NCBI GenBank assembly: GCA_030635835.1
Contig: DAOVYB010000069.1
Span: forward strand, 1-7,447
From: Gammaproteobacteria bacterium
GTDB taxonomy: Bacteria > Pseudomonadota > Gammaproteobacteria > UBA6429
Length of the DNA stretch: 7,447 bases
Direction: 5' to 3'
Shown: positions 3,014 to 6,775 of the stretch, in pieces
Numbering within the stretch: the first letter of the stretch is position 1
Layout of the letters: each line of letters begins with the position of its first letter
The notes under the pieces: model-generated
Told to the model about the DNA's origin: nothing
The model's input: only the letters and a program-made list of their open reading frames with translations
Databases searched by the model: none
Translations under genes and position numbers: made by a program

Positions 3014-3048
3014 CAACGCGGAGACGCAAAGGCGCAGAGAACGCAAAG
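3014..3048 (+). repeat. ACGCAAAG-type repeat, pair 1 left copy
   Basis: This 35-bp copy contains variants of the ACGCAAAG octamer (ACGCGGAG, ACGCAAAGG, CGCAGAGA, ACGCAAAG). It begins 16 bases after the rpe stop codon. It matches the reverse complement of 3150-3184 at 30 of 35 positions without gaps, so the pair could form a long stem in DNA or in the rpe-gph mRNA. Confidence 0.85.
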
Positions 3049-3060
3049 AAAATAATTAAT

Positions 3061-3140
3061 GTCATTGCGAGTAAAGCTCGGCAATCTTATGCTGGATAAC
3101 ATTTTTCTGTAGATTGTCGCAGTCATTCCATTGCCATGAC
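3061..3140. repeat. 80-bp nested inverted-repeat element inside pair 1
   Basis: The left end GTCATTGCGAGTAAAGCTCG continues to GCAATCT (3061-3087). The right end (3111-3140) reads in reverse complement as GTCATGGCAATGG...ACAATCT. These imperfect arms of 27-30 bp resemble the widespread bacterial intergenic repeat that starts GTCATTGCGAG. There is no reading frame of note inside. Confidence 0.6.
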
Positions 3141-3149
3141 AAGAAATTC

Positions 3150-3184
3150 CTTTGCGTTCTTTGCGCCTTCGCGCCTTCGCGTTA
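3150..3184 (-). repeat. ACGCAAAG-type repeat, pair 1 right copy (inverted)
   Basis: In reverse complement this reads TAACGCGAAGGCGCGAAGG and ends AACGCAAAG, the same repeat as at 3014-3048 in opposite orientation. It ends 16 bases before the likely gph start, so pair 1 occupies nearly the whole rpe-gph gap. Confidence 0.85.
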
Positions 3185-4030: not shown

Positions 4031-5506
4031 ATGAATCAAGAAGAATTCAACGCGTATGTCACGCAAGGTTATAACCGCATCCCGCTCACGCGGGAAGTGC
4101 TGGCCGATCTCGATACCCCGTTAAGTACCTATCTTAAATTAGCCGATGGACCGTATTCTTATTTATTTGAATCAGTGCAAGGTGGTGAAAAATGGGGACG
4201 TTACTCCATCATAGGTTTACCTTCACGAAAAGTGATTCGAATTTCCGGTTATGAAGTGAATATTCTGCAAGATGGAAAACTGTCAGAAACATTAACAGTT
4301 GATGATCCTCTGAACTGGATTGAAGAATTTCAAAAAGAATATAAGGTTCCGGAAATTGAAGGGATGCCAAAGTTCAATGGCGGGCTGGTTGGTTACTTTG
4401 GGTATGACACTATTAGGTACATAGAACCACGATTGGAGAACTGTCCAAATCCGGATCAATTAGAGTTGCCGGATATTTTACTCATGGTTTCAGATGAGTT
4501 GGTGGTGCACGATAATTTAAGTGGCAAACTCTATATTATTGTTCATGCTGATGCCGAGAGTTATGAGTCTGCTCAGGTGAGATTAGACTGGTTATGTAAT
4601 CAGCTTGATAGCCATATTAGTCACCCTGCAAAATCTAAACCTGTAAAAGTTAAAGAAAATGATTTTGTTTCTGGTTTTAGTCAGGACGGTTTTGAAGCTG
4701 CTGTATTAAAAGCGAAGGAATACATTAAAGAAGGTGATGCTATGCAGATAGTGTTATCACAGCGTTTATCGATTCCTTTTTCGGCACGCCCTTTGGATCT
4801 TTATCGCGCTTTACGTAGTTTAAATCCTTCACCTTATATGTTTTATCTGGATCTTGGAGATTTTCATGTTACCGGTTCTTCACCGGAAATATTGACCCGC
4901 TTAGAAGAAGGTGAAGTAACGGTAAGACCCATTGCCGGGACACGGCCTCGGGGTAAAACGACTAGGGAAGATAAGCTGCTTGAATATGAATTATTATCTG
5001 ATCCAAAAGAACTCGCTGAACATTTAATGTTAATCGATCTTGGACGTAACGATGTTGGTCGAATTGCAAAAACCGGTAGCGTGAAATTAACTGAAAACAT
5101 GCTCATTGAGCGTTACTCTCATGTTATGCATATAGTTTCAAATGTGATTGGCAGGTTAAAAGAAGGTTTAAGCGCAATGGATGTGTTACGTGCCACTTTC
5201 CCTGCCGGAACAGTGAGTGGCGCACCAAAAATTCGCGCAATGGAAATCATTGATGAATTAGAACCGGTTAAGCGGGGTGTCTATGCCGGTGCAGTGGGTT
5301 ATCTCTCATGGCATGGAAATATGGATACGGCTATTGCTATTAGAACAGCGGTAATAAAAGATAAAACACTTCATATACAAGCCGGTGCAGGTATTGTTTA
5401 TGATTCAGTGCCTAAAAATGAATGGGATGAAACCATGAATAAAGGACGCGCGGTTTTTCGTGCTGTTGCCATGGCAGAAGCCGGACTGGATAAAGTACAT
5501 AAATAG
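4031..5506 (+). CDS. trpE: Anthranilate synthase component I
   Basis: The product converts chorismate to anthranilate using ammonia delivered by TrpG, the first committed step to tryptophan. Its 491 residues fit the family. The N-terminal part has LFES at 45-48 in [16 protein letters not shown], corresponding to the LLES element of the tryptophan feedback site, together with NPSPYMFYL (265-273), so allosteric inhibition is expected. Catalytic-domain motifs follow: GSSPEIL (282-288), IAGTRPRG (301-308), [14 protein letters not shown] (332-345), YSHVMHIVS (362-370) with the conserved His367, [18 protein letters not shown] (390-407) and [17 protein letters not shown] (452-468). ATG 4031 is preceded by TAGG at eight bases; an ATG at 4027 is out of frame. 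The C-terminus is complete. Tryptophan, rather than PabB, is indicated by trpG and trpD downstream. Confidence 0.97.
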
Positions 5507-5521
5507 CAAAGTCAAAAGACT

Positions 5522-5557
5522 CAACGCAAAGGCGCAAAGATGCAAAGGAACGCAAAG
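5522..5557 (+). repeat. ACGCAAAG-type repeat, pair 2 left copy
   Basis: The 36-bp copy reads CAACGCAAAGGCGCAAAG, then ATGCAAAGGAACGCAAAG. It is four octamer-like units in a row and the closest of the six to the apparent consensus. An AAAAGACT flank precedes it, matching the A-rich outer flank seen at the other copies. Confidence 0.88.
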
Positions 5558-5574
5558 TAAATTAAGGAAAAACC

Positions 5575-5582
5575 AGGGAGGG
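5575..5582 (+). promoter_or_regulatory. Strong ribosome binding site of the GxxExxY gene
   Basis: AGGGAGGG ends four bases before ATG 5587 and contains GGAGG (5578-5582). It is the strongest Shine-Dalgarno sequence in the window, in contrast with the weak or absent sites before gph and trpG, and it fixes the start of the cassette gene. Confidence 0.75.
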
Positions 5583-5586
5583 TAAT

Positions 5587-5964
5587 ATGAATGAGAATGA
5601 TATATCGAGACTTGTGATAGGTGCTGCAATTGATGTACATCGTACAATGGGGCCTGGTTTACTGGAATCTGTGTATCATCAGTGTATGAAGCATGAGTTA
5701 GGAATAAGGGGTATAGCTTATGAGACAGAAGTGCAGATAAAAGCGGAGTATAAAGGATTAGAGTTTGATTGTGCTTACCGAATGGACATTGTGGTCAATA
5801 ATAGTGTTGTACTAGAATTAAAAGTTGTAGAACACTTGTTACCTGTACATGAAGCACAATTATTATCTTATTTAAGATTGACGGGAAAGAAACTTGGTTT
5901 GTTAATTAATTTTAATACACCTATTTTAAAATCAGGAGTAAAACGTATAGTGAATGGTTTATGA
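5587..5964 (+). CDS. GxxExxY-family protein with PD-(D/E)XK-like core
   Basis: This 125-residue protein carries the family signature G24-LL-E27-SV-Y30. It starts with a helix (ISRLVIGAAIDVHRTMGPGLLE), followed by EVQIKAEYKGLEFDCAYRMDIVV and VVLELKVVEHL. Asp67 and the Glu77-Leu-Lys79 triplet have the spacing of a PD-(D/E)XK nuclease core, and Gln91 in QLLSYL fits the helix after it. The last part, KLGLLINFNTPILKSGVKRIV, is the usual family ending, so the gene is full length and undamaged. The fold suggests nucleic-acid cleavage or binding, but no biochemical role is known to me. It has no tryptophan-pathway role; it sits between trpE and trpG inside an inverted-repeat pair, with its own strong ribosome binding site. 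The position suggests it is mobile cargo, or that it recognises the repeats (inference). Confidence 0.9.
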   Translation: MNENDISRLVIGAAIDVHRTMGPGLLESVYHQCMKHELGIRGIAYETEVQIKAEYKGLEFDCAYRMDIVVNNSVVLELKVVEHLLPVHEAQLLSYLRLTGKKLGLLINFNTPILKSGVKRIVNGL

Positions 5965-5972
5965 AGTTTAAA

Positions 5973-6007
5973 CTTTGCGTTCTCTGCGTCTTTGCGCCTT
6001 TGCGTTG
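5973..6007 (-). repeat. ACGCAAAG-type repeat, pair 2 right copy (inverted)
   Basis: The reverse complement reads CAACGCAAAGGCGCAAAG, then ACGCAGAGAACGCAAAG, nearly identical to the left copy. On the + strand it ends in GCGTTGGATTTTTTC, so the trpG start (6017) lies only nine bases beyond the repeat and the T-run lies between them. Confidence 0.88.
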
Positions 6008-6016
6008 GATTTTTTC

Positions 6017-6610
6017 ATGCTTTTAATGATCGATAATTATGATTCCTTTACTTATAACCTGGTTCAGTATTTTGGTGAGCTTAAGGTGGATGTACAGGTA
6101 TACCGTAATGATGAAATTACAATTAAAGAAATTGAAAAGCTAAAACCAGAATACCTTGTTATTTCACCGGGTCCCTGTACACCAAAAGAAGCCGGAATTT
6201 CAATTGATACTATCAGGCATTTTGCAGGTAAAATTCCGATTTTAGGTGTTTGCCTGGGGCATCAGAGTATCGGGCAGGCTTTTGGTGGAAAGATCATCCA
6301 TGCTAAAAAAATCATGCATGGAAAAGTTTCACAAATCTATCATAACAGTGAAGGCGTATTTAAAAATCTGTATAGCCCGTTAGATGCGACACGTTATCAT
6401 TCGCTGGTGATAGATGTTAAAACGCTACCAGACTATCTTGAAGTTACCGCATGGACTGAAAAGGAAGGTGGTATTATGGATGAGATTATGGGGGTACGAC
6501 ATAAAGAGTATCCGATTGAAGGTATTCAGTTTCATCCTGAATCAATATTAACTGAGCATGGTCATGCGATGTTACAGAACTTTTTGGATTCAGTTAAATC
6601 AAAGAATTAA
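6017..6610 (+). CDS. trpG: Anthranilate synthase component II (glutamine amidotransferase)
   Basis: The product releases ammonia from glutamine for TrpE. With ATG 6017 it has 197 residues, the normal size for TrpG/PabA, beginning [20 protein letters not shown]. Class I amidotransferase motifs are intact: [11 protein letters not shown] (50-60) at the oxyanion loop, [15 protein letters not shown] (77-91) with nucleophile Cys79, MHGK (100-103), and [14 protein letters not shown] (169-182) with His173 and Glu175. An open frame reaches back to TTG 5975, but those residues are translated inverted repeat (LRLCAFAL) and are not part of the family. Only a weak GGA (6007-6009), at the repeat edge, precedes the start. 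It is separated from its partner trpE by the GxxExxY cassette. Such subunits often serve PabB as well. Confidence 0.96.
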
Positions 6611-6615
6611 AGATC

Positions 6616-6651
6616 CAACGCAAAGGCGCGAAGACGCAAAGGAACGCAAAG
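6616..6651 (+). repeat. ACGCAAAG-type repeat, pair 3 left copy
   Basis: The 36-bp copy reads CAACGCAAAGGCGCGAAG, then ACGCAAAGGAACGCAAAG. It starts only five bases after the trpG stop codon and is preceded by AAAGATC, the same A-rich flank as the other copies. Confidence 0.88.
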
Positions 6652-6669
6652 TTAAAAAAGATTTTGTAG

Positions 6670-6687
6670 GTTGGGCTTTAGCCCAAC
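6670..6687. repeat. TTGGGC/GCCCAA hairpin inside pair 3
   Basis: GTTGGGCT (6670-6677) and AGCCCAAC (6680-6687) form a perfect 8-bp stem with loop TT. Hairpins of the form TTGGGCTTTAGCCCAA are common dispersed repeats in proteobacteria. There is no T-run, so it is not a standard terminator. Confidence 0.7.
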
Positions 6688-6739
6688 GCTGTGGTAAGAA
6701 AAGAGTAAACATTTAATAAAATAGTAATTAAACAAAAAA

Positions 6740-6775
6740 CTTTGCGTCTCTTAGCGCTCTTTGCGCCTTTGCGTT
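6740..6775 (-). repeat. ACGCAAAG-type repeat, pair 3 right copy (inverted)
   Basis: The reverse complement reads AACGCAAAGGCGCAAAGAG, then CGCTAAGAGACGCAAAG. It pairs with 6617-6651 over most of its length with a few mismatches and one extra base. The + strand continues AGGTTTTATGATTTTTT, again T-rich. The 6611-6803 gap holds this pair, the hairpin at 6670-6687 and no gene. Confidence 0.85.

Follow-up and report, generated by a model that had tools for sequence, protein, structure and literature searches.

MITEs are gene-less copies that share their termini with a rarer parent insertion sequence, which carries the gene. A comparable arrangement of gene and repeats is found in the REPtron, where a chromosomal gene lies beside copies of a palindromic repeat, other copies are dispersed, and the type of repeat is matched to the enzyme (PMC8266576). 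The REPtron gene is described there as behaving more like a housekeeping gene than like a transposase gene (PMC8266576). A third system is the intervening sequence (IVS) of 23S rRNA genes; in Coxiella, it forms a 428-nt element with a 28-bp stem and an S23 ORF (PMC4990558). Here, we compare with these systems a small GxxExxY gene and its inverted repeat arms, found in a 7,447-nt stretch of gammaproteobacterial DNA (contig DAOVYB010000069.1), which we call the window. In the literature searched, which was confined to non-subscription sources, GxxExxY is mentioned in passing, and the arm strings did not occur.

The genes in the window are rpe, gph, trpE, trpG and trpD. The named proteins closest to those of the window are gammaproteobacterial, and the window TrpE is 81% identical to a TrpE in the gammaproteobacterial class searched. 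As the original prediction had it, a complete GxxExxY gene with a good ribosome-binding site lies inside inverted repeats, and gene and repeats are located between trpE and trpG (Table 1). The gene-carrying element has a length of approximately 490 nt, is intergenic in the window, outside any gene, and its gene is co-oriented with both neighbors. Each arm is about 35 nt long and consists of four tandem CRCNNAG-type octamers, in the window mostly ACGCAAAG. The arms had been described as near-identical inverted repeats of about 36 bp. They do form an inverted pair, but because the best ungapped inverted match (5514-5547/5982-6015) is only 85% complementary over 34 nt, we call them similar and not near-identical. 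Further, the original prediction overlooked two more arm pairs in the window, both gene-less, one between rpe and gph and one between trpG and trpD. The interior of the gene-less trpG-trpD element (6617-6775) contains a GTAGGTTGGGC..GCCCAAC palindrome. Other repeat-like sequences, GTCATTGCGAG and GTAGGTTGGGCTTTAGCCCAAC, were noticed in the gene-less interiors at 3052-3146 and 6652-6739, as if one repeat family had inserted into another; GTCATTGCGAG is presumably a repeat, and GTAGGTTGGGCTTTAGCCCAAC is reminiscent of GTAG-tagged REPs. Among the family-matching ORFs of at least 80 aa between the window arms, no known transposase type was found, GxxExxY being the only family. A search of the window for rRNA gave no match at E ≤ 1. 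The single Rfam match in the window had an E-value of 0.92, far under the gathering score, and a known RNA family was rejected as the identity of the element on this ground.

Table 1. Features of the gene-carrying element, the gene-less elements and the adjacent host genes in the window.
Feature	Position	Strand	Basis
GxxExxY nuclease gene (predicted activity), 125 aa, TIGR04256 / PF13366	5587..5964	+	ORF, family profiles, fold prediction
Ribosome-binding site AGGGAGGG of the nuclease gene	5575..5582	+	read from sequence
Left arm of the gene-carrying element, four tandem CRCNNAG-type units (ACGCAAAG, GCGCAAAG, ATGCAAAG, ACGCAAAG)	5523..5557	+	sequence, repeat search
Right arm of the gene-carrying element (left arm inverted)	5973..6006	-	sequence, repeat search
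Left arm of the gene-less element between rpe and gph	3015..3051	+	repeat search (pair I3)
Right arm of the gene-less element between rpe and gph	3147..3183	-	repeat search (pair I3)
Left arm of the gene-less element between trpG and trpD	6617..6651	+	sequence, repeat search
Right arm of the gene-less element between trpG and trpD	6740..6775	-	sequence, repeat search
trpE, host gene left of the insertion	4031..5506	+	family profile
trpG, host gene right of the insertion	6017..6610	+	sequence, family profile

Family profiles identified the window protein as GxxExxY, with 146.1 bits for TIGR04256 (cut-off 35) and 144.4 bits for PF13366 (cut-off 22); PDDEXK_3/GxxExxY alone was matched in Pfam and NCBIfam. 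No sequence match to solved structures was found at a meaningful E-value. The fold model (mean pLDDT 96.3) had its best solved structural match in Cas4 SSO0001 (E 3e-4, TM 0.61), followed by lambda-type exonucleases with weaker E-values. Nucleases of the RecB/Cas4 branch share the motif D, ExK, QxxxY. These core features and the fold model agree with the PD-(D/E)XK-like protein that had been proposed, nuclease activity being a prediction. The predicted active-site residues of the window protein are H18, D67, E77-K79 and Q91-Y95. Among the 83 armed elements introduced below, D67, K79, E27 and Y30 are present in all 83, E77 and Y95 in 82, Q91 in 81 and H18 in 72. We thus predict a minimal nuclease of the Cas4/lambda-exonuclease type whose active site is conserved and which is likely active, given the fold match and the conservation of the catalytic residues. 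With the window protein as query, relatives were detected in 7 of 72,556 plasmid records and in 0 of 50,697 phage records; in viral contigs, which were searched with an alignment, 70 stretches fit a pattern and none was confirmed. Phage or plasmid cargo was rejected on these numbers. From the near-absence of relatives in plasmids, phages and viral contigs, we conclude that the protein travels, if at all, mainly within chromosomes.

All genome-wide results were drawn from the genomes of relatives. An alignment of 59 relatives served as the query in a scan of the GTDB genome collection. Out of 578 confirmed stretches, the best 80 were taken; they come from Proteobacteria, Bacteroidota, Chloroflexota, Planctomycetota, Verrucomicrobiota, a cyanobacterium, archaea and others. 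Flanks were compared for 77 of these best 80 of 578 loci, three having too little flank. The median inverted-flank score was 39; the corresponding medians were 18 in shuffles, 20 with mismatched partners and 19 in same-locus controls, the latter with a maximum of 52. A score of at least 30 (200-nt flanks) was reached by 55 of the 77 GxxExxY genes. Among 273 control ORFs from these loci, 7 reached it, and in three of the seven (L045, L048, L063) the arms belong to a second GxxExxY gene of that locus. The remaining 22 of the 77 genes scored below 30. For 148 elements, a larger set, the score had a median of 33 compared to 18 for mismatched partners; 80 elements exceed the 95% point and 47 the 99% point of the mismatched pairs. 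Since the flank scores exceed those of control ORFs and mismatched pairs, the arms go with the GxxExxY gene and not with genes at large, and chance or a shuffling artefact is ruled out by the shuffles, the mismatched partners and the same-locus controls. Thus, the expectation that most GxxExxY genes are bounded by inverted repeats holds in the relatives examined, the exception being Rhodopila globiformis (G023; L081-L089), whose many GxxExxY genes or gene fragments are mostly armless. The genome of R. globiformis contains 79 matches to arms of the AT type (see below).

One fixed repeat of the ACGCAAAG type had been expected at these genes. Instead, we found a family of tandem-unit dialects, comprising CRCNNAG, CRCNNAT and rarer forms. 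The Lentisphaerae genome G008 has six genes with six unit types (CACGAAG, CACGAAA, CGCAACG, CACAGAC, CACAGATG, CACTAATC), each of them matched between left and right. The pairing of left and right flanks was assessed for 120 elements, from 123 left after removal of duplicates. In 51 of the 120, the best match of the left flank among all 120 right flanks was its own partner (approx. 1 expected), and when partners were shuffled within genomes, the observed sum was reached in 0 of 10,000 permutations. The own partner was strictly best within its genome for 45 of 59 elements, or 45 of 51 without G023. The two dialects that were searched across genomes are private: CACTAATCNACACTAATC is present in one of 25 genomes, and CACGGAGCAACGGAGCAACGGAG has 37 matches in the uncultured Geobacteraceae G015 and none in the 24 other genomes. 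For the CACTAATC dialect of G008, 10 of 14 matches are found in a stretch of about 50 kb that surrounds the cognate gene (contig C92, approx. 95-145 kb; L161-L172), as if spread had been local. The first 400 kb of contig C3 in G003 (L141-L160) show many dispersed palindromes of several families (GTAGGTCGGGC, CGTCATTCCCGCG, CRCNNAG, CRCNNAT).

Next to the pairing of the two arms, a coupling between arm and protein became visible. Among the 148 elements with usable flanks, 83 are armed (score of at least 30), and the more identical two proteins are, the more similar are their arms (Mantel rho 0.34, a value reached in 0 of 500 permutations). In 73 of the 83, the final unit letter could be called (59 G, 14 T; 10 unlabelled). 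On the tree of the 83 proteins this letter changes once, versus a mean of 13 changes after shuffling, so that the 14 CRCNNAT and the 59 CRCNNAG elements lie on opposite sides of one branch, which has a support of 98. Unit positions 2 and 5 are also clustered on the protein tree, more weakly (17 changes versus approx. 24 shuffled). Since a single change on the tree represents a single event, the last-letter split alone is no proof of recognition. A follow-up set was composed of elements that had not been used in defining the AG/AT split, whose arms were called under one fixed rule. The AG side yielded 36 G, 1 T and 5 mixed elements, with 24 uncallable; the AT side yielded 4 T, 0 G and 3 mixed elements, with 6 uncallable. 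The biggest differences between the proteins of both sides are a two-residue gap near the C-terminus and several residues, among them S28, R65 and S94 (window numbering), which adjoin the active-site residues E27, D67 and Y95. In combination, the split on the tree and the within-genome pairing are difficult to account for without a joint action of protein and arms, and we consider the protein-arm pairing well supported as far as comparative data go. A strict rule, by which a dialect requires its gene in the same genome, was not supported: an AT-side gene was found in 6 of 8 genomes with at least five AT-type arm matches and in 7 of 17 genomes with fewer.

Arms are also frequent in their own right. 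Pairs of AG-type arm units had more than 100 matches in 4 of 25 genomes, although these counts are rough, since the control pattern in reversed orientation gave as many as 34 matches in a single genome. This abundance is compatible with arms that are ordinary dispersed repeats, with the gene located between them by chance or for a local function, e.g., as a toxin or regulator; hairpin-templated repair, which could equalise left and right arms, would then keep them alike. We hold this to be highly improbable, as it leaves unexplained why the arm letter tracks the protein tree across phyla and why arms are rare at control ORFs. Our preferred reading is that the protein acts on the arms. The gene had been proposed to be either cargo of the repeats or the enzyme acting on them; the enzyme fits better, and cargo fits worse, because the enzyme is matched to its repeats.

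Signs of mobility were found for gene-less copies. In G015, one private arm pair brackets a GxxExxY gene, and in 13 others the arms start 87-114 bp apart. An alignment of 15 gene-less copies from G015 revealed a common conserved interior (two copies with deletions) between unrelated flanks; no trace of the GxxExxY gene was seen by eye in the 15 interiors. A match to a gene-less region was obtained in 30 of 39 genomes of the G015 genus, some of the matches being only arm-length or flank pieces. The empty site of one gene-less copy was found in the congener G055, where the flanks are 88 and 92% identical, and the filled counterpart is flanked on both sides by GTGGA. A 5-bp target duplication outside CCT..AGG ends, which in the gene-less family lie about 20 bp outside the arms, was detected over 37 copies from several genomes (39 candidates, two without an arm pair), with a mean of 2.35 matches versus 1.71 (p = 0.0002). 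Five is the only significant length (k = 4, p 0.85; k = 6, p 0.06), and perfect duplications are GTGGA, ATAAA, TTGAT and ATAAC. Target duplication is thereby established for one gene-less family, and none is established for gene-carrying copies. In comparisons between G055 and G015 (L316 versus L317, L320 versus L325), the core of the element is deleted at short shared sequences and the outer ends remain, which are possible excision scars. Some of the copies missing in G055 are internal deletions of this kind that leave the ends; therefore, not every missing copy represents an unfilled site.

A classical transposase could leave both the 5-bp duplication and CCT..AGG ends located outside the arms. 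Further, AT-type arms are abundant in G003 (27) and G012 (29), where the placed genes are all AG-side (a fourth, short fragment of G012 is unplaced). Both observations favor an unrelated transposase that moves arms and gene-less palindromes, the GxxExxY protein only binding the arms as a repressor, in copy-number control or as a passenger. Nevertheless, we regard this as unlikely. One transposase candidate, the IS1380 type (PF13701), was chosen for its end features; as the mover of the gene-less family it was not supported, since PF13701 had no match in G015, which holds at least 15 gene-less copies, nor in G033 and G035. The ends of the gene-less family were not found at the two full-flank copies judged elsewhere (L369, L370), where the best alignment scores were 12-16 versus 40-46 for a perfect end. 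In addition, the outer end sequence has 37 matches in five genomes, and in 26 of 30 loci that were read the arms come next to it; the catalytic residues of GxxExxY are conserved. Both observations argue against the unrelated transposase.

The gene-carrying element of G015 occupies the same place in several congeners and is absent from G045, with 469 nt versus 71 nt between the matching parts. At this orthologous site, the left and right arms have changed in concert: both are CAACGGAG in G015 and G033, both are CAACAGAG in G035, and both are CACNGAG in G029. In G055, the left dialect differs from the right one at this site, and the gene of G054 has a stop codon. The gene copies of G015 and G033 at one site have a pN/pS of 0.13, pointing to purifying selection.

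The trpE-trpG junction of Pseudomonas aeruginosa is the location of the R/F pyocin cluster, and the original prediction took this to mean that the junction accepts insertions elsewhere. The junction is not special, because elements occupy many loci. For a survey of the junction, the loci of the 30 best TrpE matches were used; three had no trpG found downstream and 27 were counted. A GxxExxY gene was present in 4 of the 27, in 21 the spacer measures 115 nt or less and contains no such gene, and two contain other inserts. The GxxExxY gene at this junction in L279 gives a two-part match and is possibly broken. Two gammaproteobacterial loci have a 1167-nt insert without a GxxExxY match (L306) and a 180-nt spacer with a long palindrome (L308) at trpE-trpG. 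The junction is also filled in G002 (L002), which was reached by a separate route. The trpE-trpG insertion is thus common to several gammaproteobacteria. On the protein tree, the window protein belongs to a set of four (support 99), and L283, L286 and L002 are the rows closest to it by path; because of this grouping the insertion is probably old and partly inherited. The empty neighbors may be either unfilled sites or losses. Empty sites, as predicted, do exist: the 21 junctions without gene are one instance, and gene-carrying as well as gene-less sites that are empty in congeners are another. That gene and repeats together form a unit is supported.

Genes of the four-helix-bundle family TIGR02436 (IVS-type) were tried as a negative control, using 30 loci (L339-L368), of which 27 were examined and three partial matches left out. 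They failed as a control, since they are armed themselves. Inverted arms of tandem short units with a score of at least 30 enclose 16 of the 27 genes, versus 3 of 702 mismatched pairs (e.g., L365, L341, L361, L362, L350, L367), and the own partner was best in 17 of 27. The CRCNNAK unit occurs twice on both sides in none of the 27 TIGR02436 loci versus 97 of 148 GxxExxY elements (23 of 148 in a reversed-orientation control). As TIGR02436 genes share the anatomy, the anatomy needs no nuclease. On the other hand, their unit classes differ from those of GxxExxY, and arm class therefore follows protein family, which again favors recognition.

The layout shared by the IVS-type family in the loci examined would also suit an RNA-level element like the 23S rRNA IVS, in which the stem of the transcript is cut by host RNase III and the protein binds RNA, the manner of spread being left unspecified. 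When folded as RNA, the window region has a strong fold (z = -5.95, equalled by 0 of 100 shuffles), with the stem closed by the arms; the gene is co-oriented with trpE and trpG, and the element, with its ORF in the loop of a long stem, is near in size and layout to the 428-nt Coxiella IVS (PMC4990558). Against this stand the protein fold, which matches DNA exonucleases best, and the dispersed gene-less copies and the 5-bp duplication, which suggest insertion of DNA. Consequently, we rate an RNA-level element as distinctly improbable.

We favor, with modest confidence, that the GxxExxY gene and its arms constitute a selfish or semi-domesticated chromosomal element, which is REPtron-like, with enzyme and repeats that are both unrelated to those of the REPtron. 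A small PD-(D/E)XK nuclease of the Cas4/lambda-exonuclease type would recognise its own arms by their CRCNNAK units, probably in the form of a cruciform or hairpin, and would nick or trim the DNA there. In cis, it would rarely move, or else maintain, the gene-carrying copy; in trans, it would spread gene-less palindromes with cognate arms, whose insertion at a staggered target cut would create the 5-bp duplication. Comparison of the genomes shows a unit architecture, matching left and right dialects, coupling of protein and dialect, dispersed gene-less copies and empty sites, and also a 5-bp duplication in one gene-less family and a conserved active site that is under purifying selection. From there, we infer that DNA and not RNA would be the substrate, that the protein would cut the arms, and that the mover would be the GxxExxY protein rather than another transposase or host repair. 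We know of no lone nuclease of this fold that transposes DNA; if this nuclease does move the repeats, DNA would spread without any known transposase.

A wider reading, which we put forward tentatively and hold to be possible though less probable than the one above, is an undescribed cross-phylum class of palindromic mobile elements, each with a small protein that reads the tandem units of its own arms. GxxExxY with CRCNNAK units would form one branch and TIGR02436 with other unit classes a second branch; the 23S rRNA IVSs would be members of the TIGR02436 branch inserted in rRNA, and gene-less members would account for a large part of the palindromic intergenic repeats in environmental bacteria that lack an explanation. 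The parallel with the four-helix-bundle genes may therefore bear on the origin of rRNA intervening sequences. More generally, the proposed element would place a widespread family of proteins with unknown role in a context, would explain a common class of intergenic repeats, and would offer a natural protein-DNA code, in which unit letter corresponds to protein clade.

Compared with known systems, the closest likeness is to the REPtron, in that the GxxExxY gene lies beside its own repeats, cognate gene-less copies are dispersed, and the repeat type is matched to the enzyme; dispersed cognate gene-less repeats were found in G015, though not for every dialect and genome. However, the REPtron enzyme is an HUH protein (TnpA-REP/RAYT), whereas the GxxExxY element encodes a predicted PD-(D/E)XK nuclease, and REPtron repeats are mostly GTAG-tagged REPs, whereas GxxExxY arms are tandem CRCNNAK units. 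Profile, fold and arm comparisons gave no sign of a relation of the GxxExxY protein or arms to the REPtron protein or repeats. With the 23S rRNA IVS, the element shares its shortness and one small ORF within terminal inverted repeats that form a long stem (PMC4990558). In contrast, IVSs are inserted in rRNA helices and cut by RNase III, while GxxExxY elements are intergenic and encode a nuclease-fold protein; the window element lies between trpE and trpG and not in a 23S rRNA helix. As in MITEs, gene-less copies share arms with a rarer gene-carrying copy and show target duplication, but the window arms enclose GxxExxY only, no known transposase, and are built of tandem units; the full set of MITE features (gene-less, inverted termini, target duplication, dispersed) was found in the gene-less family of the G015 genus only. 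Cas4, lambda exonuclease and RecB nucleases are similar in predicted fold and motif, whereas GxxExxY has 125 aa without extra domains and lies beside its own repeats. Homing endonucleases reside in an intron or intein and cut the allele that is unoccupied; the window element is intergenic. Since each known mobile family considered differs in a defining feature, apart from the MITE features of gene-less copies, we count the element as new, as judged from the non-subscription literature: GxxExxY elements look like an undescribed kind of mobile DNA element.
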